A DNA stretch of 64,000 nt from Desulfovibrio ferrophilus (lineage in GTDB: Bacteria > Desulfobacterota > Desulfovibrionia > Desulfovibrionales > Desulfovibrionaceae), in the NCBI RefSeq assembly GCF_003966735.1, contig NZ_AP017378.1:3430905-3494904 (forward strand), read 5' to 3'. Below, piece by piece: positions 51,608 to 62,139 of the stretch. How positions within the stretch are numbered: position 1 is the stretch's first letter; every line of letters begins with the position of its first letter. The notes under the pieces were generated by a model that was not told the DNA's origin, did no database searches, and worked only from the letters and a program-made list of their open reading frames with translations. Both the position numbers and the translations under genes were made by a program.

Positions 51608-52270
51608 CTAGAAACGTTCGCAGTTGTGCTTTACGGTGATGCCCTCGGAGATGAAGATCGTGGTCTCGGCGATGTTGGTCGCAAGATCGCCAATACGCTC
51701 CAGGCTGCGAGCTGCCAGAATGGTGTTGACCGCACGGCGCACACCAGTGACTTCGGTCACCATATCATCCATGGTTTTCTTCAGAATACGCACATTGAGA
51801 TCATCAGCCTTGTAGTCCATGCGGCAGACATCGGCAGCCTTTTCGGCGTTTTCTTCCTTGAAGGCCTCTACCGAGGTGCGCAACATGTCCTGAGCCGTGT
51901 CCACAAGTTCCTGCAGCATGGGATTGTGCGGGACCTCGGGCAACTTGGAGAGGTAGATGGTTTTCTCCGAGATGTTGACAGCCTCGTCGCCGATACGCTC
52001 CAGATCGATGACAGCGCGTCGGCAACCGGTAATGAACCGCAGGTCGCGGGCGACGGGCTGCTCACGAGCCAGCAGCAGTAGGCTGAACTCATCGATTTCG
52101 AGTTCGATATCATTGATTTCAGTATCTTTTTCAATGACCTGATCAGCAAGATCAATATTTTTGTTGATCAGTGCGGTGCAGGCATCGCTCACGGCACGTT
52201 CTGCGTAAGCGGCCATGTGTAGGATTTTCATATTCAATTCTTCGATGTTTTTGTGGAACTGGGTTTCCAT
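51608..52270 (-). CDS. phoU: Phosphate signalling protein PhoU
   Basis: The 220-residue protein is a duplicated three-helix PhoU fold, with LLLLAREQPVARDLRFITGC and RIGDEAVNISEK in one half and RSLERIGDLATNIAETTIF in the other (the metal-binding E/DxxxD motifs). It links Pst transporter state to PhoR. It lies 10 nt after pstB. Confidence 0.95.
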   Translation of the reverse strand: METQFHKNIEELNMKILHMAAYAERAVSDACTALINKNIDLADQVIEKDTEINDIELEIDEFSLLLLAREQPVARDLRFITGCRRAVIDLERIGDEAVNISEKTIYLSKLPEVPHNPMLQELVDTAQDMLRTSVEAFKEENAEKAADVCRMDYKADDLNVRILKKTMDDMVTEVTGVRRAVNTILAARSLERIGDLATNIAETTIFISEGITVKHNCERF

Positions 52271-52280
52271 AACGTCTCTC

Positions 52281-53039
52281 CTAACCGAAGCGGCCGGTGA
52301 TGTAGTCTTCGGTCTGCTTGTTCTTGGGGCGTGTGAATAGGGTCTCGGTGGAATCCACCTCGATCAACTGGCCCATGTAGAAAAATGCGGTGACGTCGGA
52401 TACGCGTGCGGCTTGTTGCATGTTGTGGGTGACAATGATGATGGTCAGCGCATCCTTCAGGTCGTGGATGAGCTCTTCTATTTTTTGCGTGGCAATGGGG
52501 TCCAGTGCGCTGGCTGGTTCATCCATGAGCAGGACCTGAGGCTGGACGGCCAGTGCGCGGGCGATGCATAGACGCTGCTGTTGGCCGCCTGACAGACCGA
52601 GAGCGGATTCGTGCAGGCGATCCTTGACCTCGTCCCACAGGGCTCCCTGCTGCAGGCTTTGTTCCACGCGTTCGGCAACCTTGTTTTTGTCCTTCCAACC
52701 GTTGACCCGAAGTCCATAGGCCACATTCTCGAAGATGGTCTTGGGAAACGGGTTGGGTTTTTGGAAGACCATGCCCACATGGCGTCGCAAATCCACGACA
52801 TCAAGCTTGGGGGAGTAGATGTCCTGGTTGTCGAGGGTGACTTTGCCTTCCACCCGGGTGCCGGCAATCAGGTCGTTCATGCGGTTCAGGCAGCGCAGAA
52901 ATGTGCTTTTCCCACAGCCGGAGGGGCCAATCAGGGCCGTAACCTTGAACTCCTCGAAGCTGAGGTTGATGTCTTTGAGTGCCTTGAAGTCCCCGTAGTA
53001 GAAATCGAGGTTTTCAGCGGCCATTTTCAGGGTGCTCAT
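52281..53039 (-). CDS. pstB: Phosphate ABC transporter ATPase PstB
   Basis: The 252-residue protein has Walker [11 protein letters not shown]-loop [18 protein letters not shown] (the PstB signature), LSGGQQQRL and Walker [12 protein letters not shown]. The ATG at 53039 is preferred because an AAGG site lies 5 nt upstream; the frame extends to 53060. It powers PstCA, which is encoded 6 kb away on the other strand, so the transporter needs both operons. Confidence 0.95.
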
Positions 53040-53081
53040 GAGTACCTTGCCTTCCGTCATTATGCGGGCTGTGAGCCCGGA

Positions 53082-54899
53082 TTAGGATTCGATCTGGCCG
53101 TTTTCGGCCGGTAGAGAAAAATAGAACGTCGATCCAGTATCGGCATCTTTGCGGTTCTCAACCCAGATGCGTCCACCCAGACGTTCGACAATGTGTTTGC
53201 AGATGGCCAGCCCAAGACCGGATGAACCGATGTGGCCGGATTTGGCGCGATGCTTTTCAACGCGGTAGAAGCGTTCGAAGATGCGTACCGTGTCTTCCTT
53301 GGGGATGCCGGGGCCGAGATCACTAACGCCGAAGATGGCTTCGGTGCTGTCGATTCGGTAGTCCACGCTGATGCTCGACTCTTCAGGGCTGTACTTGACG
53401 GCATTTTCAACAAGATTGCGGAAGACCTGGACCAGCCGATCAAAATCGGCCCGGACCGGAACGCCCTCTTCGGGGAGGGTGGTGGAGAGGGTAATGCGCT
53501 TGGTACCCGCCAGATGATCGCAAGTTCGGAAGGCTTCGTTCAGGGCGTCTGCTGCGTTGACCCGAGCCGGGGAGAATTGCTGTTTGCCGCTTTCAAGTCG
53601 CGACAGGGAGAGCAGATCCTCGACCATTTGCGCCATGTGATCGGCGTTTTTGAGGATGACCTCAAGGAATTTGATGGATGTCTGGGGATCGGTCTTCTTG
53701 TTGGTCAGGATGGTTTCCGAATATCCTTTGATGGTGGTCAGGGGGGTGCGCAACTCGTGCGAGACATTGGCGACAAAGTCACGCCGTACGCGCTCCAGAC
53801 GTTTGAGCTCGCTGATGTCATGGAAAACGATGATGGCTCCGCTTCCGCTTTCCAGCGTGTCGAGGCGAACGATATTTACGTCATAGATGCGGTTGCGATC
53901 GGGCTCGATCTGCAGTGACCAGGGGCCACGCTCCATGTCGGAATTATTGGCCAAGGCACGATCGCAGGCGTCCTGCAACTCCGGTGAAAGCACAATTTCC
54001 AGGGGACGTCGGCCCGTGTATTGGGTCGCATCAGGGAAGATGCGGGTCAGGGCTCGGTTGACTTTGGCAATGCGACCTGATGCGTCAAGCACCATTAAAC
54101 CCTCGCGCATGCCATCCAGAATGCCTTCGACCTCGTTGGCCTGCCTTGAAATGGTGGCAATCTGGGATTCGATGGATGCAGCCATGGTGTTGATGGACTG
54201 GGCCAGGGGTTCGAATTCCGTGCCTGGGTAAAATCGTAGGCGCTTGTTGTAGTCGCCCTCGCCAATGCCCTTGGCGACGATGCTCATCTCGGCGACTGAG
54301 CGCCCGATGGATCGGGTCAGCACCATGGATAGGATGAAGGACAACCCCAGGGCGAGACCGAAGACCAACAGAATGTTGTTTTGCAAACGCTCAAGGCGGG
54401 TGGAGATGCTGGCATAGGGCACAGACAGGCGCAGAAAACCCTCCTTGATACCAGCGAGACCTTCGATGCGTGTGGCGGCGTAGATCAGATTTTTGTCGAG
54501 AGTGGCGCTGTAGCGCTGGCTGATGCCGTAGTGTTCTTGCTCGGCCTGGGTGATTTCCGGGCGGTTGGCGTGGTTGTCGAGGTCCACGACTTGTGCATAG
54601 GAAACATGTGAATCGGCAATGACGCGGCCGCCCTTGGTCAGGTAAGTGATGCGGGCATCAAGGCGACTGCCGAGATCAGTCAGCCAGGTGTGCAGGGCCT
54701 GCTCGGTCGGAAAGGAACCGCGCTCCTCGATCAGCAGCGAGGCCAGCCTCAGTTCGCGGATGGCACCGGCCTGGGCGTCGTCAAGTATTTCGTCCTTGAA
54801 GAGCTGGCGGGCGTAAAACGTTGGCAACAGCAAGGCCAGGATGATGACGATGGCAAAGGCCAGGAGCAGACGCGTCCTGAAGGTCATTGAAGCGGGCAT
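53082..54899 (-). CDS. phoR: Phosphate regulon sensor kinase PhoR
   Basis: The 605-residue kinase has two membrane helices (about residues 9-28 and 170-193) bounding a periplasmic region of about 140 residues, then HAMP, PAS, HisKA (NVSHELRTPLTTIKGYSET with the phospho-His) and HATPase (NLVENAVKYSPE, SDLGPGIP, GSSGLGLA). Classic E. coli PhoR lacks a large periplasmic domain; this longer form is common outside enterics. It phosphorylates PhoB at low phosphate. The start is next to phoB (2-nt gap). Confidence 0.92.
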   Translation of the reverse strand: MPASMTFRTRLLLAFAIVIILALLLPTFYARQLFKDEILDDAQAGAIRELRLASLLIEERGSFPTEQALHTWLTDLGSRLDARITYLTKGGRVIADSHVSYAQVVDLDNHANRPEITQAEQEHYGISQRYSATLDKNLIYAATRIEGLAGIKEGFLRLSVPYASISTRLERLQNNILLVFGLALGLSFILSMVLTRSIGRSVAEMSIVAKGIGEGDYNKRLRFYPGTEFEPLAQSINTMAASIESQIATISRQANEVEGILDGMREGLMVLDASGRIAKVNRALTRIFPDATQYTGRRPLEIVLSPELQDACDRALANNSDMERGPWSLQIEPDRNRIYDVNIVRLDTLESGSGAIIVFHDISELKRLERVRRDFVANVSHELRTPLTTIKGYSETILTNKKTDPQTSIKFLEVILKNADHMAQMVEDLLSLSRLESGKQQFSPARVNAADALNEAFRTCDHLAGTKRITLSTTLPEEGVPVRADFDRLVQVFRNLVENAVKYSPEESSISVDYRIDSTEAIFGVSDLGPGIPKEDTVRIFERFYRVEKHRAKSGHIGSSGLGLAICKHIVERLGGRIWVENRKDADTGSTFYFSLPAENGQIES

Positions 54900-54901
54900 T
54901 G

Positions 54902-55585
54902 TTATTCCTTGAAGCGGTAGCCAACGCCGCGCACGGTTTCGATGAGGTTTGCATGATCAGTCAGCTTCTGGCGCAGGCGGCGGACATGAGTGTCCACAGT
55001 GCGGGCATAGCCTTCAAATTCGTAGCCCCAAACCGTGGTCAGCAACTGGTCGCGGGTTCGAACCCGGGGGCTTGTCTTGAGCAGCTCGGCCAGCAGTTTG
55101 AATTCAGTGGCGGTGAGAATGATTTCCTCGTTGTCCGCAAAGACCTTGTGTGCCTCCATATCAACAGTCAGGCCGTCCCGCTGCAGCGTGGTTCGGACCT
55201 GAACCGGGCCGGATGAACGCCTGAGGACTGCGCGGACGCGCAGCAGCAATTCGCGGAAGCTGAATGGCTTGACCACGTAGTCGTCAGCCCCCAACTCCAA
55301 GCCAACGATGCGGTCTACTTCCTCACTCCGGGCCGTGAGCATGATGACCGGAATCTGGGCGGTTTCGGTGTTTATTTTCAATTCCTTGCAGATTTCGAAT
55401 CCATCCATGCCGGGCAGCATGAGATCAAGCATTACGAGGCTGGGGCGAAGGCGTTTGGCCATGGCCAGGCCTTCACGCCCGTCCATGGAAGTGCTGACTT
55501 CAAATCCGGCGGATTCGAAGTTGAATTGCAAGAGCTGCAGGATGTCTTCGTCGTCTTCGACGATCAGAATCGTTTCATTGGTCAT
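54902..55585 (-). CDS. phoB: Phosphate regulon response regulator PhoB
   Basis: The 227-residue protein has a receiver (ILIVEDDEDILQLLQFN, Asp in LVMLDLMLPGMDG, Lys in DYVVKPFS) and an OmpR-type winged helix (LTATEFKLLAELLKTSPRVRTR, VDTHVRRLRQKL). It binds Pho boxes. The Pho box at 55646-55686 suggests autoactivation. Confidence 0.95.
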   Translation of the reverse strand: MTNETILIVEDDEDILQLLQFNFESAGFEVSTSMDGREGLAMAKRLRPSLVMLDLMLPGMDGFEICKELKINTETAQIPVIMLTARSEEVDRIVGLELGADDYVVKPFSFRELLLRVRAVLRRSSGPVQVRTTLQRDGLTVDMEAHKVFADNEEIILTATEFKLLAELLKTSPRVRTRDQLLTTVWGYEFEGYARTVDTHVRRLRQKLTDHANLIETVRGVGYRFKE

Positions 55586-55794: not shown

Positions 55795-57390
55795 TCAGGA
55801 CTGGAGCAGTTCTCGGGCCAGGGCTTCGCCTTGTTGGCCACCTCCGCCCATGCGGGAAAGTTCCGAGAATATTTCGGGCTCGCTCAGGCGCTTGCAACTG
55901 ACGGACGTCATGCCGTTGCCTACGGCTTTGCTGATATTGAAATGGCAGGCGGCCTTGGCAGCTAGTTGTGGCCAGTGAGTAATCAGGATGACCTGTTGTT
56001 GAGCCGCAAGAGTCTGAATCCTGTTGCCGACAGCGTTCAGGGTGAGACCGCCGATACCGGCGTCGACTTCGTCGAAGATCAGGGTAGGCAGGGATTCGCG
56101 GGTCATGAGGCCCACCAGGGCCAGCAGGAAGCGTGAAAGCTCACCGCCCGAGGCGATTTGGTCCAAAGGTTGGGGGGCCTGACCGGGGTTGGGTATCCAG
56201 AGCAAACGGGCTCGATCCTCGGACAGCCCTGGATAGACTTCGTGAGGCGTGAAGGCAATTTGGACTTGAACTGCCTTGTCGAAACCCAAACCTGCCAGAT
56301 CTCGCGCCAGATTAGCGCACAGGATTTTCGCAGCGCTCTGTCTGGCATCGTTCAGGACATTCAGGGCCAGTTCGAGCCTGGATGCGAGTTCGACCTCGCG
56401 GCGTTCCAGTTGCTTGGCGTCCAAGGCGCAGGAATCCAGAAAGGAGAGGTTCTCATCAATCTCTTTGCGCAAGTTCACGATCTCATCCAGAGAGCGGTTC
56501 AGTTTGCGCTTGAGTTGGGCCAGTGCATACAGGCGTGATTCCACCTGTTCCTGGTCATAGCCGGTGTCAGGACGCTCACAACTGCGCAGTCGGGCGTCCA
56601 TGTCCATGATCCGTTGGCGAAAATCTTCACAGGCATCGGCTTCATCCGCCCATCGCTCGTCCTGGGCCGCTAAGGTCTGAATGGCGCGAAGCAGGGTGGA
56701 GGCCTGGTCCAGCATTCCCTCGCCCTGACCGTGCAGGGCGTCCAGTGCTTCCTCGACGGCCTTGGCGCTCCGGGCGAAGTCCTTGTAGTTTTTTTTCTGG
56801 GCCAGCAGATCGTCTTCCTCACCGGGCTGGGGATCGACTTTTTCAATCTCGGCAGATTGAAACTCGAGCATTTCACGCCGCTCGCTCAGGCTCCGTACGC
56901 GGTCATCCAGTTCCTGTTTTTCAAGCAACAGGTCACGCATGGCAGCCAGGAGCTGGTCCTTTTGGGAGATGACGCTCTGGTCTGGAAGAAAACGGTCGAT
57001 GAGTTTGGCTTGATAGGCCGGAGAAAGCAGGCGTTGTTGTCCGTGCTGGCTGGTGTGCCAGACCAGTCGCTCGCGCAACTCTCGGACCACGTTTTGGGAA
57101 CTCAGCGAGTCATTGATAAATAGGCGGCTGCGGCCTGTTTCACCGGAAAGCTCGCGGCGAATCATCAACTCCTCTCCGTCCTGTACGAAAATTGCTTCCA
57201 CCTGCGCCTTGGCGGCGGACTCGCGCACCATATCGACCTTGAGCTTGTCGCCCAACAGGAAGTTCACGGCGCGCAGGATAAAGCTCTTGCCCGCTCCGGT
57301 TTCGCCGGTGAGGACGTTGATGCCCTCGGCGAATTCCAGTTCCAGGTCTTCGATGAGCGCGAGGTTTTGTATTCTAAGGAATTCTAACAT
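55795..57390 (-). CDS. recN: DNA repair protein RecN
   Basis: The 531-residue SMC-like ATPase begins MLEFLRIQNLALIEDLELEF, with Walker A TGETGAGKSFIL and, near the end, the signature and Walker B regions SGGELSRFLLAL and TLIFDEVDAGIGG. The centre is coiled coil. It works in double-strand-break repair. The start at 57390 gives the standard N-terminus; the frame extends to 57435. Confidence 0.95.
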   Translation of the reverse strand: MLEFLRIQNLALIEDLELEFAEGINVLTGETGAGKSFILRAVNFLLGDKLKVDMVRESAAKAQVEAIFVQDGEELMIRRELSGETGRSRLFINDSLSSQNVVRELRERLVWHTSQHGQQRLLSPAYQAKLIDRFLPDQSVISQKDQLLAAMRDLLLEKQELDDRVRSLSERREMLEFQSAEIEKVDPQPGEEDDLLAQKKNYKDFARSAKAVEEALDALHGQGEGMLDQASTLLRAIQTLAAQDERWADEADACEDFRQRIMDMDARLRSCERPDTGYDQEQVESRLYALAQLKRKLNRSLDEIVNLRKEIDENLSFLDSCALDAKQLERREVELASRLELALNVLNDARQSAAKILCANLARDLAGLGFDKAVQVQIAFTPHEVYPGLSEDRARLLWIPNPGQAPQPLDQIASGGELSRFLLALVGLMTRESLPTLIFDEVDAGIGGLTLNAVGNRIQTLAAQQQVILITHWPQLAAKAACHFNISKAVGNGMTSVSCKRLSEPEIFSELSRMGGGGQQGEALARELLQS

Positions 57391-57527
57391 GGTTGACTCG
57401 AGCCGGACTGTAGCCGAGGCCTTCGGCAAGGGCAAGAGAGACTCGGCAGATGACTGAAGTGCGTTGGGAAGAAGATGCGGCCCGGGACGATCAAGGAATC
57501 ATTCGATTTGCTTTTATTTTGGGCAAG

Positions 57528-58154
57528 TTATGTGCGTTCGGACCAGGCAAGAGAGAGGCCGAGCCCCACCAGCACCCCTCCGGCAATCTTGTTGATGCGT
57601 CCGCCCACGGCCAGGCGGGCATGCAGCCAGTCGGAGAGTGAACCTGCTGTCAGCCCCACAAGAGAAAAGCAGATCATGGTCAGTGCAATGAAGGTGGTCC
57701 CCAGCACCGCCATCTGCATCGAAGGGTGCAGCCCACCCTCACGGACGAATTGCGGGAAAAAGGCCAGGAAGAAGATCGCCACTTTGGGGTTGAGCATATT
57801 GGCCAATATGGATTGGCGAAAGACTGCAACAGTTTGCTTGGCGGAGTCTGTGCCCCCGCCCAGCGGCCCGGCCTTGGACATGAACAGACGCAGGCCCAGA
57901 TAAGCCAGATAGGCGGCTCCGGCGAATTTGACGGCGCTGAAGGCCCAGGCTGATGAGGCAATGAGAGCAGAGACGCCGGCGATGGCTGCAGCGGTGTGCA
58001 CCACATTCCCCAGGCTGAATCCGGCAGCCGCAGCAAGTGCTGCGCCTCGCCCCTGAGCCGCTCCCCGGGTCATGACGTAGATGATATCCGGTCCCGGAGT
58101 GAAGATCAGCACCAGGGACGCCGCGCAGAACAGAAGCATTTGATCAAGTGCCAT
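57528..58154 (-). CDS. LysE/RhtB-family amino acid exporter
   Basis: The 208-residue protein has six membrane helices and the LysE motif FTPGPDIIYVMTRGAAQGRGAAL. It exports amino acids such as threonine, homoserine lactone or lysine; the substrate is not assignable. It lies 12 nt after the TrmO-aldolase fusion and probably shares its transcript. Confidence 0.92.
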   Translation of the reverse strand: MALDQMLLFCAASLVLIFTPGPDIIYVMTRGAAQGRGAALAAAAGFSLGNVVHTAAAIAGVSALIASSAWAFSAVKFAGAAYLAYLGLRLFMSKAGPLGGGTDSAKQTVAVFRQSILANMLNPKVAIFFLAFFPQFVREGGLHPSMQMAVLGTTFIALTMICFSLVGLTAGSLSDWLHARLAVGGRINKIAGGVLVGLGLSLAWSERT

Positions 58155-58166
58155 GAATCATCCTTG

Positions 58167-59156
58167 TTATTTGCTGTTCAGCAGCAGCCGGATCTTGGCC
58201 AGGGAGTCCAGTTCTTCGGAAAGGGCCAGGCAGTCACTCAGGTTGTCGCCATGCACCACCAGGCCGTGGTTGGCCATGAAGATGGAGCGGTAGTCCTTGG
58301 CCGCCTGTCCTACGGCAATGCCCAGGTCCGGGGTGCCGGGTTCCATGGCGGGAACTTCGGTCAGCCCTTTTTGGTACATCCCGGCTTCGAATAGTGGCAG
58401 GTCCACCAGAGCCGTTCCCAGGCGCATGAAATGGGCCAGCAGGTGGGGTGGATGGGTGTGCGCCACGGCCTTGGTCTCCGGGACGTTGCGGTAGATTTCC
58501 AGATGAACGGGGGCCTCGGACGAGGCCTTGCCCGGCCCGGTGGTGTGCCCGGTCTCAATATCCATGACCGTGAGGGTGCCGGGTTTGAGTCGGCCTTTGG
58601 CTGCGCCGGAGCGCGTGATGACCATGGAGTCAGCGATGCGCACGGACACATTACCGTTGAAGCCGGAGAACAAACCACTGTTCCAGGCCGCTGTGCAGGC
58701 CTCGCGGATTTCGTTGCCCACGGCCCTTGGGATGCCTGCGCCCCAGTTTTCGACTCCGGGGGTTTCTCCTGCAATGGGTTTGATGTCCACGATGGGGGTA
58801 CCGTCCAGCACCTCCAGCCGATCTACGGTCAGTTCCAGGCCTTCGACCTTCAGCAGGCGGCAGTGGTGTAAGCCGATGGGGTTGGGACGATCGGGGGAGC
58901 GGGTGCTGAATATACCGCGCACGGGAACGTTTCTGTCCCCTCGGGGATGGCATTCAAGCACATCGCGCTGGGCCTTATGCAGCCAGCTGAAGAGCAGGAT
59001 GTCGTATCCGGCTTTCAGGTTGTTCACTCCTGTTGCATAGGCTGGGTCCACGCTGATCACAGCCTGGGGTGCGTTTTCGGAATATTGTTTGGGGCAGTCC
59101 TGAATGCGTTTCAGGGGCGAACGGACAGTGCCGATGATGCGTAGGGTCGTGTCCAT
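58167..59156 (-). CDS. Fusion of TrmO-like (TsaA) domain and class II aldolase domain
   Basis: The 329-residue protein has an N-terminal TsaA/TrmO domain (about residues 1-137; signature GIFSTRSPDRPNPIGL, 81-96) and a class II aldolase/adducin domain (about 145-329). The aldolase half keeps SGFNGNVSVR, Glu214 in SSEAPVHLE, the zinc histidines of HTHPP (233, 235) and His297 in ANHG. TrmO N6-methylates t6A37 of tRNA using SAM. Class II aldolases cleave sugar phosphates or act on methylthioribulose phosphate. One chain carrying both is unusual. No frameshift is visible and the linker is short. Confidence 0.9.
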   Translation of the reverse strand: MDTTLRIIGTVRSPLKRIQDCPKQYSENAPQAVISVDPAYATGVNNLKAGYDILLFSWLHKAQRDVLECHPRGDRNVPVRGIFSTRSPDRPNPIGLHHCRLLKVEGLELTVDRLEVLDGTPIVDIKPIAGETPGVENWGAGIPRAVGNEIREACTAAWNSGLFSGFNGNVSVRIADSMVITRSGAAKGRLKPGTLTVMDIETGHTTGPGKASSEAPVHLEIYRNVPETKAVAHTHPPHLLAHFMRLGTALVDLPLFEAGMYQKGLTEVPAMEPGTPDLGIAVGQAAKDYRSIFMANHGLVVHGDNLSDCLALSEELDSLAKIRLLLNSK

Positions 59157-59164
59157 GGCGAATC

Positions 59165-60148
59165 CTATGTGTTGGCAAAGTGGTCGAATCCGGCGCTCGG
59201 GACAGGATTGCCGTTCAGGGTAATGCCGGGGGTGCCGGTAACAGTTCCGATACGGGTCGCATCTGGAATGGCTCCGAGGATGACATCGGCTTCCGCTGGG
59301 GCGACGCAGGCCAGCAGGGCATAGTCTTCACCACCAAGGTAGGCGAATTGCACGGGGTTCAGTCCCTGCTTTTTGGTCCAGGCCAGCGTCTCCGGGTGCA
59401 GCGTGTCCTTGGGGATATCAAGCTGCGCCCCTAGAGCTGGGCCGAGGAACCGGGGCAGGTCCTGGGCAAGTCCATCGGAGAGGTCCATACACCCGCGTAC
59501 CGCCCGGCGCGCGGCCAACTCCAGTCCTTCTGTGACTCTGGGGTGGGGTCTCAAATGCGCAGCAACGGCTTGCGGATATTGTTCTATTGCCTGGGGGCCC
59601 TTCTGTTCCAGAGCCATGAGTCCGGTCCGGACCAGGCCGAACCTGCCCACTGTCAGCAGCACATCATCGGGCCAGCAACGGCGTCGTTGCAGAACGCGGC
59701 CTTGCGGGCCGGGTTCGCCCCAGATGGTGATGTTCAAGCCCAGCATGGGCGCTTGGGAAAGGTCGCCACCGGTCAGCGGAAGATCGTGCAGAGCCGCCAG
59801 AGCCGCCATCCCCTGAAACAACTCGTTCCAGAAATCGCCAGAGAGGCCTTGTGCGGCAGGAGGCACCATCAACCCGAGACTGAAACCCAGGGGCTTGCAG
59901 CCCATGGCAGCGATGTCACTGATATTGACGGCCAGGGCCTTCCAGCCGATGTCGGCCGGGGAGAAGTACGAGGTGCGGAAGTGAATGTCCTGCAGAAAAA
60001 GGTCCCCCGAGAGGACCATGTCAGGTGGACAGACCAGTTGAACGCAATCGTCCCCGCGCGCAACAGGCATGTGCTGGTGGGCGTTGGGGAAGTGGCGATC
60101 AATGAGAGTCAGGAATTCCTGTTCCGAGGCAGGCGCTGCTTGGGGCAT
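59165..60148 (-). CDS. thiL: Thiamine-monophosphate kinase
   Basis: The 327-residue protein follows the ThiL/PurM fold: GDDCVQLVCPPDMVLSGDLFLQ, then NISDIAAMGCKPLGFSLGL (metal and ATP site), then DLSDGLAQDL. It phosphorylates TMP to the active cofactor TPP. The ATG at 60148 follows GGAGAG. It lies 8 nt upstream of the TrmO-aldolase gene in the same transcript. Confidence 0.92.
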   Translation of the reverse strand: MPQAAPASEQEFLTLIDRHFPNAHQHMPVARGDDCVQLVCPPDMVLSGDLFLQDIHFRTSYFSPADIGWKALAVNISDIAAMGCKPLGFSLGLMVPPAAQGLSGDFWNELFQGMAALAALHDLPLTGGDLSQAPMLGLNITIWGEPGPQGRVLQRRRCWPDDVLLTVGRFGLVRTGLMALEQKGPQAIEQYPQAVAAHLRPHPRVTEGLELAARRAVRGCMDLSDGLAQDLPRFLGPALGAQLDIPKDTLHPETLAWTKKQGLNPVQFAYLGGEDYALLACVAPAEADVILGAIPDATRIGTVTGTPGITLNGNPVPSAGFDHFANT

Positions 60149-60261
60149 TGGTCTCTCCATCTGGGGTCAGGCATATCTCCGTCTGCCGGAGGGTAATCCA
60201 AAACCCGCTGGAAAGGAACCGGTCGGTAGTGCTCCTGGCCGGACTGAGCGCGCATATCCTG

Positions 60262-60465: not shown

Positions 60466-60798
60466 GGTGGACCTCCTGTCGATGCGCCCGGAACAGATGG
60501 TAGTCCTGATTCAATCAATACAAGGACCATGCCGGATTGCGCATTGTCCCAGAGGGCCTTCGAGCCGTGCATCGGGAAGGCCATGTGAATGCCGCGGGCA
60601 GGTGCGCCAAGCATTCGGATCCGTAAGGGTTTGTGTGTATAAAAATCAAATAAAGAGGAGGGATATCAGTAAATGCCTTAGAGGTGTGCGGCCTTTTGCA
60701 TTGCAAGGCCCATTGTGCTGTGCAATACTTTCGCATTGCGGAAGATCATTCTGCCGGGACAGAAATGGGGATTTTTTTACCCAATCGAGGATAACTCA
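60466..60798. other. 333-bp gap without a recognisable gene
   Basis: It contains a strong ribosome-binding site (AGAGGAGGG, 60654-60662) followed by ATG-CCT-TAG at 60673-60681, and an inverted repeat GGCC...GGCC near 60690-60710. It probably holds divergent promoters for the small Cys-rich gene and the TPR gene. No further gene seen. Confidence 0.45.
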
Positions 60799-62139
60799 TT
60801 GAGCAATGTAGCCAAACAACGCCTGTACGAAAAAACCATTGTCGATTTTGTGGCAAGCGAGGATGGTGCTTTCTTTGCTGTCAGCCATGACCAGAATTTT
60901 CTGAAGTTGTTCCGGCAGACTCTGAATAAGGAATTGATTATCGGGACAGACCGGATTCGGACTCTTTCCGAGGAAAACAAGCTGCTTTCAGAGCTGAAAA
61001 GCCCCTTCTACAAGGATAAAAAGCCCCTGCTGGTCATCGAACGAGTGCTTCATAACCGTAGCATGTTGTCTTTCATAAAGAATATGAAGACGTTGCATGA
61101 GGATATGCATATCATCGTTCTGACTTCCGAGGTGGAACGTCAGGTTTTGATCCTGCTGCATGAGATCGGAGTCAGTAATTTTATTACCAAGCCCATCTCG
61201 GTCAATACCCTGATCGAGAAGTTGGCCTTCACCATCAAGCCCCAGGGCAAGATCGGCCAGTACATTGAACGGGCCAAGAAGCATCTGTCCAAGGGCATGT
61301 GGGATGAAGCCATTGCTCTTTCCGACAAGATTCTGGATTTGAAGCCCGGCAGCGCCGCTGCGCTGATGGTCAAAGGCGATGCCCTGAAGGCACAGGGCCA
61401 GGCAGAGACCGCAGAGGCTTCGTATCTGGAAGCCCACAAGGGAGCTTCTCTGTATCTGGAACCCCTGAAGAAACTGGCCGAACTCTACAAGGATGAAGGC
61501 GACGCCGATAAACAACTCACGTATTTGAAAAAGCTGGATCGTCTGTCTCCGCTGAATGTGGAACGCAAGATTAGCATTGGCGAGATTCATCTGGAGTTTG
61601 GCGATCAGGAAAAAGCGGGTGAGTATTTCGATCAGGCTGTGGTCAATGCCCGTAAGGAAGCTCAGGTCATGATCGAAGAGGTCAAGCGCTCCATTGCCGA
61701 AAAATGCCTGGATCGAGCTCCGGCCACGGCTGAAAAATTCTTCCGTTCCATCATTGATGACAAGCGTGGTACTTTGAAGAAGTCTGATATCGAGACCTTC
61801 AACCGCCTTGGCATGGCCCTGCGCAGGCAGGGACGTTGGGAAGACGCGGTGGGCGAGTATGAGCAGGCCCTGAAGATTAGCCCCGACGATGAGAATCTGC
61901 ATTTCAACAGGGCGGTGGCCCTGACCGAAGGCGGCAAGCATCGCCAGGCCGAGCAGGCACTGACCAGGGTGCTGGACCTGAACCCCGACTTTGGAAATCA
62001 GAGTCCTGTGCTGACCTTCAATATCGGAATCATGTATTCCAACGCCCGCAAGCCCGAGGAAGCCAAACGCTTCATGGAGCGGACCCTGAAACTGGACCCC
62101 AAGCACAAGAGTGCCAGGTCCATGCTCAAGGATTTGTAA
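60799..62139 (+). CDS. TPR protein with degenerate receiver domain
   Basis: The 446-residue protein probably starts at TTG 60799 after CGAGGATAACTCA. Residues about 20-145 fold like a response-regulator receiver: HDQNFLKLFRQ, PLLVIERVL, IIVLTSE, NFITKPIS. Thr109 and Lys131 are kept, but Glu81 stands where the phospho-acceptor Asp belongs. The rest (about 150-446) is a run of six to eight tetratricopeptide repeats such as EDAVGEYEQALKISPDDENL. It is likely a scaffold for protein contacts, with a fixed or pseudo-active receiver. Confidence 0.85.
   Translation: MSNVAKQRLYEKTIVDFVASEDGAFFAVSHDQNFLKLFRQTLNKELIIGTDRIRTLSEENKLLSELKSPFYKDKKPLLVIERVLHNRSMLSFIKNMKTLHEDMHIIVLTSEVERQVLILLHEIGVSNFITKPISVNTLIEKLAFTIKPQGKIGQYIERAKKHLSKGMWDEAIALSDKILDLKPGSAAALMVKGDALKAQGQAETAEASYLEAHKGASLYLEPLKKLAELYKDEGDADKQLTYLKKLDRLSPLNVERKISIGEIHLEFGDQEKAGEYFDQAVVNARKEAQVMIEEVKRSIAEKCLDRAPATAEKFFRSIIDDKRGTLKKSDIETFNRLGMALRRQGRWEDAVGEYEQALKISPDDENLHFNRAVALTEGGKHRQAEQALTRVLDLNPDFGNQSPVLTFNIGIMYSNARKPEEAKRFMERTLKLDPKHKSARSMLKDL

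Follow-up and report, generated by a model that had tools for sequence, protein, structure and literature searches.

We analyzed a 64,000-nucleotide stretch of the Desulfovibrio ferrophilus genome (contig NZ_AP017378.1, positions 3,430,905 to 3,494,904; hereafter the window), which carries on its minus strand one intact open reading frame of 329 amino acids, running from an ATG at 59156 to a stop at 58167 with zero internal stops, whose product joins a TrmO-type SAM-binding barrel to a class II aldolase (Table 1). Pfam places TrmO_N at residues 21-128 (84.2 bits vs. a cut-off of 26.8) and Aldolase_II at residues 149-323 (128 bits vs. 22.2), and the NCBIfam model for TrmO, TIGR00104, scores 111.4 bits against a cut-off of 93.25, bearing out a preliminary description of this DNA that had read both domains in a single chain. 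Each half is also the only match of its kind in its own genome, both for TrmO_N and for Aldolase_II. An AlphaFold2 model built on a 30-member family alignment has a mean pLDDT of 89.5 and a pTM of 0.65, with its minimum at residues 131-133 between the domains, where the linker also differs in length among the 30 aligned fused proteins. Foldseek matches the N-terminal half of the model to the YaeB-like structures 3okx and 2nv4 (AF_0241 with SAM), and the C-terminal half to L-fuculose-1-phosphate aldolases.

Table 1. The trmO-ald fusion, its parts and its nearest neighbours, in window coordinates
Feature	Position	Strand	Evidence and remarks
trmO-ald fusion gene	58167..59156	-	ORF and translation, Pfam, NCBIfam; 329 aa
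TrmO_N-type SAM-binding beta-barrel half, residues 1-130	58767..59156	-	Pfam TrmO_N, TIGR00104; closest solved structures 2nv4, 3okx
Linker, residues 131-142	58731..58766	-	Alignment of relatives, AlphaFold2 model; 131-133 pLDDT <50
Class II aldolase half, residues 143-329	58170..58730	-	Pfam Aldolase_II; residues aligned with E. coli FucA; fold resembles FucA and DrdA
thiL, thiamine-phosphate kinase	59165..60160	-	TIGR01379 188.9 bits, cut-off 184.15; ends 8 bases before the fusion gene
LysE-type exporter gene, next downstream	57528..58154	-	Pfam LysE
recN-like gene, further downstream	55795..57435	-	TIGR00634 339 bits, below cut-off 407.85

The upstream thiL is the only TIGR01379 match over cut-off in its own genome, and the downstream LysE-type gene is not at the locus in a same-genus relative (L034). 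Promoter scanning returned 2 sites vs. 1.6 in shuffled sequence, about chance level, and 8 terminator-like sites vs. 5.8. Elsewhere in the window, PhoU, an ABC ATPase, a PAS/HAMP histidine kinase and an OmpR-type regulator lie in a row at 51608-55585 (minus strand), in what looks like an ordinary phosphate-response block, and a TPR protein whose N-terminal domain weakly resembles a receiver is encoded divergently from thiL at 60715-62139 (plus strand), as it also is in the same-genus relative.

Distribution and history of the fusion

A search of genome contigs matched one locus, that of the same-genus relative, in which both halves share one frame at 82% identity to the window protein. Together with the 66 order genomes, out of 150, that have the two halves joined in a single frame (among the matches listed), this rules out a sequencing error at the junction, which the preliminary description had named as one way its reading could fail. 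Those 66 genomes comprise 61 with a single full-length row and 5, all from genus g244, in which two pieces lie inside one open frame; among the same listed matches, 38 of the 150 carry the short TrmO alone, 25 the aldolase alone (with G410 entered on a partial match) and 21 neither half at comparable strength. The last group consists of 16 genomes that gave no match and 5 whose matches are weak or partial (G045, G367, G370, G395 and G445), including a 43% complete genome (G370) whose partial piece spans the junction. In six of the 61 single rows the matched range contains a single stop; we take these as terminal stops, since one such row (L036, from G054) is a plain 324-aa ORF.

In a closer set of 59 relatives, 53 gave a match and 30 carry both halves in one frame, one of these (G017) being counted from residue 26 on and another (G021) consisting of two pieces in one frame. 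For these relatives the start codon was taken as the one nearest to that of the window protein, and the L060 row starts at a non-Met residue. Two frames considered as extra fusions, of 712 aa in L035 and 265 aa in L072, proved to be upstream extensions of the frame and were rejected. The fused state is present in all six sampled families of the order, which excludes the other way in which the preliminary description might have failed—that relatives always keep the two as separate genes—though many relatives have one half only.

Outside the order, a scan of 297 genomes of the phylum gave zero fused rows besides that of the own genome among the matches listed, which extend far below the score of a fusion, with at most 7 candidates scored per genome. 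The domain pair had been called uncommon; this holds outside the order as sampled, among those listed matches, and fails inside it. Among plasmids, 1 of 723 matching records covers at least 80% of the query, with a 28.7% match over residues 49-328 that we did not count as a fusion, and a search of the open-access literature found no paper on a TrmO-class II aldolase pair among the papers listed. The phylum scan did reveal the two as adjacent genes in the reverse order, aldolase before trmO, in three of the five genomes of family f44 (G164, G131 and G245), with TrmO only (G096) or the aldolase only (G193) at the same site. At the f44 loci L120, L121 and L122, a CDP-alcohol phosphatidyltransferase-type gene (assigned by scans in L120 and L123), the class II aldolase and the short TrmO stand in a row, and in L123 UbiX, UbiA-like and PNP-superfamily genes come before. 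Many relatives additionally encode a second, more distant short TrmO paralogue (L079-L087, 32-44% identity) with differing neighbours, which is missing from the own genome.

We next consider how the fused and separate forms are related. In a tree of 49 aldolase domains, the order's 30 fused and 9 standalone domains come together (SH-aLRT 98); 8 of the 9 standalone aldolases fall within one fused subgroup (support 93 and, beneath it, 96), and the ninth pairs with one fused row (81). The standalone aldolases have most likely lost the TrmO half, to judge from this tree, and their position among fused ones therefore points to an old fusion whose halves were lost later. The TrmO tree likewise unites 30 fused and 13 standalone rows with 4 others (95), with poor resolution inside the group (9 of 58 inner branches starred); a second, 123-aa match in L073 was left out of the trees. 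On a combined ThiL and UvrD tree, restricted to the 33 loci with ThiL or UvrD (12 of which are less than half filled), losing the TrmO half needs 3 changes, 2 of them forced by supported branches, and losing the aldolase half needs 4, 1 of them forced. Four of the 59 relatives (G026, G003, G011 and G019) have the aldolase with no TrmO match, and the TrmO half is therefore dispensable there. We suggest that two neighbouring genes fused close to the order's root, probably in a single event, and that either half can be lost.

Residues and folds of the two halves

The preliminary description had stated that both halves keep their signature residues. The SAM-site residues of TrmO (Gln25, Arg92, Asp125 and Lys136 in E. 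coli; Gln22, Arg82, Asp111 and Lys122 in AF_0241) correspond to Q24, R86, E115 and K126 in the window protein, and across the 30 fused proteins the Arg is kept in 29, the Lys in 30 and the Gln in 21, with Glu replacing Asp in all; the Arg and Lys equivalents, two residues critical in E. coli TrmO, are thus retained. With TrmO proper (YaeB/TsaA, COG1720, a class VIII SAM methyltransferase that makes m6t6A37), the fusion shares these two residues and the N-terminal beta-barrel, but lacks the C-terminal domain that bears DPRxxY in the E. coli enzyme: none of the 30 fused or 21 standalone TrmO sequences examined contains the motif. According to Kimura et al. 2014 (PMC4132733), mutation of DPRxxY abolishes m6t6A formation by E. 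coli TrmO, archaeal TrmO forms lack the motif, m6t6A went undetected in every archaeal tRNA analysed, and TrmO paralogues of two bacteria group in the archaeal branch. The TrmO half of the fusion resembles these archaeal or short forms, differing from AF_0241 in the Asp111 to Glu change and in the 9 of 30 proteins that do not keep Gln22. A tRNA m6t6A activity, put forward earlier, is therefore unsupported as stated, the domain that PMC4132733 describes as needed in E. coli being missing. The TIGR00104 equivalog, at 143 positions, spans only the shared N-terminal barrel, so that passing it is no proof of m6t6A activity, and "tRNA methyltransferase" is an unproven name for this half as judged from sequence. 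YaeB structures are homodimers with the SAM site shared between subunits (PMC4132733), and class II aldolases are usually tetramers (PMC6079011); by analogy, a tetramer containing two TrmO dimers is possible for the whole fusion.

In the aldolase half, N169, S212, E214, H233, H235 and H297 are each present in 30/30 fused proteins and map to N29, S71, E73, H92, H94 and H155 of E. coli FucA, giving a metal triad of H233/H235/H297 and a catalytic E214. The fusion shares these residues and the fold with FucA and departs from it elsewhere (taking the FucA tyrosine positions from the titles of mutant structures): the Tyr113 position, residue 255, is L/I/V/F in 30/30 fused proteins, the window chain stops before the Tyr209 region, and a nearby Glu257 is invariant in 30/30. 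Curated substrate models all remain below cut-off, with OtnC highest (NF043034, 94.4 bits vs. 250), followed by archaeal FucA-like models (73-78 bits), FucA itself (63.4 vs. 400.25 bits for fucA, 72 vs. 264 for PRK08087) and MtnB (TIGR03328, 63.1 vs. 137.05). Fold comparison with VIA-align, which took in residues 134-329 only, gives Z scores among the folds listed of 23.9 for DrdA (6btg, 26% identity), up to 25.4 for FucA proteins and 23.6 for YgbL, a tie within about 1.5 Z, and identity to the solved relatives listed is 16 to 28%, too low to single out a substrate. The best PDB sequence match, 6vop, was rejected as a salvage aldolase, as it is YgbL.

Two characterized systems offer further parallels. 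DrdA/Ald2, an aldolase for 5-deoxyribulose 1-phosphate and 5-methylthioribulose 1-phosphate, has in common with the fusion its fold, its metal triad, its acid/base Glu and the presence of MtnA in the genome; the fusion differs in being 26% identical, joined to TrmO and unclustered with mtnA, and in an upstream route that would run through deaminase and PNP (compared with PMC6079011 and PMC10986504). Arabidopsis DEP1 (PMC6079011) combines a class II aldolase-fold domain with a HAD phosphatase and has 5-deoxyribulose-1-phosphate aldolase activity, so that it too joins such a domain to another one and is tied to SAM by-product salvage, but with a phosphatase of the same path as partner where the fusion has a methyltransferase-type domain.

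Salvage genes, candidate function and rival readings

The own genome encodes MtnA (409 bits vs. a cut-off of 279), a PunA-type purine nucleoside phosphorylase (PNP; 353 bits vs. 218) and a futalosine hydrolase over cut-off, along with two tandem PRK09045-like amidohydrolases (454 and 480 bits, short of the 540-bit cut-off) that are closest to MTA/5'-deoxyadenosine deaminase-type models, i.e., MtaD/DadD-like; MTA phosphorylase (MTAP) was not found there at E 1e-20. Deaminase and PNP genes were sought in this genome only, and MtnA and MTAP across the order. MtnA occurs in 87 of the 91 genomes with a fusion-family aldolase (among the matches listed), a co-occurrence that says little because MtnA is near-universal in the order (141/150). 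The four fused genomes without MtnA (G369, G379, G392 and G396) are all less than 90% complete, and of the 9 MtnA-less genomes, the four that are at least 98% complete (G006, G414, G422 and G435) have no class II aldolase, save a 39.5-bit match in G414. MtnA with no class II aldolase is found in G430, G455 and G446 (98-100% complete), in G045 (94%) and in less complete genomes.

MTAP exhibits a complementary pattern. Strong matches, of 260 bits or more, occur (among the matches listed) in 2/66 fused, 2/25 aldolase-only, 38/38 TrmO-only and 6/21 neither-half genomes, so that 4 of the 91 genomes with a fusion-family aldolase have both. Descent accounts for some of this clustering: the genera with TrmO only are perhaps one or a few lineages, and 38/38 represents far fewer independent events. 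All 38 TrmO-only genomes (among the matches listed) carry another class II aldolase, at 46 to 191 bits. The simplest reading is of two alternative salvage sets, one of deaminase, PNP, MtnA and fusion aldolase, the other of MTAP, MtnA and another aldolase. In G416, a small genome of the family with no fusion-family match, mtnA, a short other class II aldolase and MTAP stand in a row (G416:C12:162927-165388), like a compact DHAP-shunt set.

Our preferred reading, to which we give a probability of slightly under one half (about 0.48), is that the fusion joins a salvage aldolase for 5-methylthio- or 5-deoxyribulose 1-phosphate to a short, archaeal-type TrmO domain. The metal-dependent C-terminal half would most likely act on 5-methylthioribulose 1-phosphate, 5-deoxyribulose 1-phosphate or both, which derive by way of MtnA from the by-products MTA and 5'-deoxyadenosine, and split them to give dihydroxyacetone phosphate and (methylthio)acetaldehyde, as the last step of a DHAP-shunt-type salvage whose earlier steps in this genome would be deamination by the two MtaD/DadD-like enzymes, phosphorolysis by PNP and isomerisation by MtnA. 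The N-terminal half, a short archaeal-type class VIII TrmO, would bind SAM and probably methylate an RNA, perhaps t6A37 in tRNA-Thr. The preliminary description had proposed a link to a SAM by-product, and its tie between aldolase and salvage is the best-supported reading, because the fusion provides the sole class II aldolase beside MtnA, PNP and MtaD/DadD-like deaminases and is distributed in a manner complementary to MTAP. We reject the idea that the halves are consecutive steps: methylation by TrmO would yield SAH, whereas different reactions of SAM give rise to MTA and 5'-deoxyadenosine. Against the salvage aldolase we count the substrate models below cut-off, the genomes with MtnA but no class II aldolase, the deaminase scores, the four genomes with both aldolase and MTAP, and the distance of mtnA, which in the own genome lies more than 2 Mb from the fusion and which in none of the 62 fused genomes that have MtnA comes closer than 100 kb on a shared contig (among the matches listed); no DrdA/Ald2-type cluster, with kinase or phosphorylase and isomerase, was thus found around the fusion.

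Among the 30 fused loci, 11 have thiL on the same strand, at most 2.6 kb upstream (the window, L034, L035, L037, L041, L044, L046, L047, L052, L060, where ThiL is in two pieces, and L061); it was not seen nearby in the other 19, of which at least 2 are truncated by a contig end. Of 13 TrmO-only loci, 12 have thiL adjacent, near or fused, the exception being L076; these neighbour orders derive from a rough ORF selection with part of the neighbours annotated. Pfam also confirms a ThiL-TrmO chain of 473 aa (G028, L069:7236-8654, minus strand) and a ThiL-aldolase chain of 572 aa (G019, L071:5847-7562, plus strand). A tendency of genes behind thiL to fuse with their neighbours would produce such chains, and they favour an account whose chances we put somewhat short of even, in which trmO and ald were operon neighbours behind thiL, lost the intervening stop codon and encode enzymes that act independently, the short TrmO on RNA and the aldolase in any sugar-phosphate path—the salvage substrate included, with which this account is compatible. 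The separability of the halves (38/150 genomes with TrmO only and 25/150 with aldolase only, among the matches listed) and the weak, variable linker fit it as well. It sits less easily with a fused state kept in all six sampled families, also where thiL was not seen nearby, and with the adjacency of aldolase and trmO in reverse order in the distant family f44. The same attachment of ThiL, joined to each half in one relative each, could instead mean that both halves act with it on a thiamine precursor or damaged intermediate. This we find highly improbable: TIGR01379 is matched in 59/59 relatives irrespective of the halves (over cut-off in 46, with none over cut-off in 13), no thiL was seen near most fused loci (19/30), and we know of no thiamine intermediate that is a substrate for a class II aldolase. 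With 46 relatives over cut-off, we also rejected the idea that ThiL is a paralogue of other function and take the neighbour as ordinary thiL; extra, weaker ThiL-type matches look, by their scores, like HypE/SelD-type kin. With the trmO-ald fusion itself, every possible pair among ThiL, TrmO and aldolase is found as a single chain.

The substrate and the partner domain each admit a further reading. That the aldolase half is an L-fuculose-1-phosphate aldolase, an OtnC-type decarboxylase, an MtnB-type dehydratase or something else again, rather than an aldolase for 5-deoxypentulose 1-phosphates, is unlikely but deserves weight: OtnC and archaeal FucA-like models score top and FucA folds tie with DrdA, against which stand the failure of every model to reach its curated cut-off and the absence of the FucA tyrosines at the Tyr113 position and in the Tyr209 region. 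More speculatively, and improbably in our view, the TrmO-type domain might serve the salvage aldolase as a partner that reads or uses SAM, instead of being a tRNA methyltransferase; at similarly long odds, it would sense the SAM pool or act on a SAM-derived small molecule, and so set the rate at which by-product sugars are cleared. Such a partner would explain both the recurrent meetings of short TrmO with class II aldolases and the missing tRNA-recognition domain of E. coli, and one chain would then couple SAM supply to the disposal of SAM debris.

We know of no aldolase acting after MtnA in this order, and the fusion aldolase offers a concrete, testable candidate for that step in the 91 genomes carrying it (among the matches listed). 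It also emerges that class II aldolases are recurrent partners of short TrmO domains, whose name of tRNA methyltransferase comes from a model of the barrel only, a partnership that makes the methylation target of archaeal-type TrmO directly testable.

The known shunt yields DHAP and (methylthio)acetaldehyde (PMC10986504 and PMC6079011). An aldehyde ferredoxin oxidoreductase (AOR) gene lies directly 3' of the fused gene in G014, and a neighbouring AOR would be a fitting sink for the aldehyde. AOR-like genes at L051:4-1726 (minus strand; called by Pfam), L072:8149-9969 and L075:8134-9816 (both plus strand; called by similarity) also adjoin a fused or standalone TrmO gene. Finally, two relatives (G010 and G015) exhibit a run of thiL, a radical-SAM gene, trmO, an AOR-like gene and a gene for an Aldolase_II-domain protein (402 aa in G010; 45.9 bits in G015), in which the radical-SAM gene has a BATS domain (scanned in G010) and is biotin-synthase-like.
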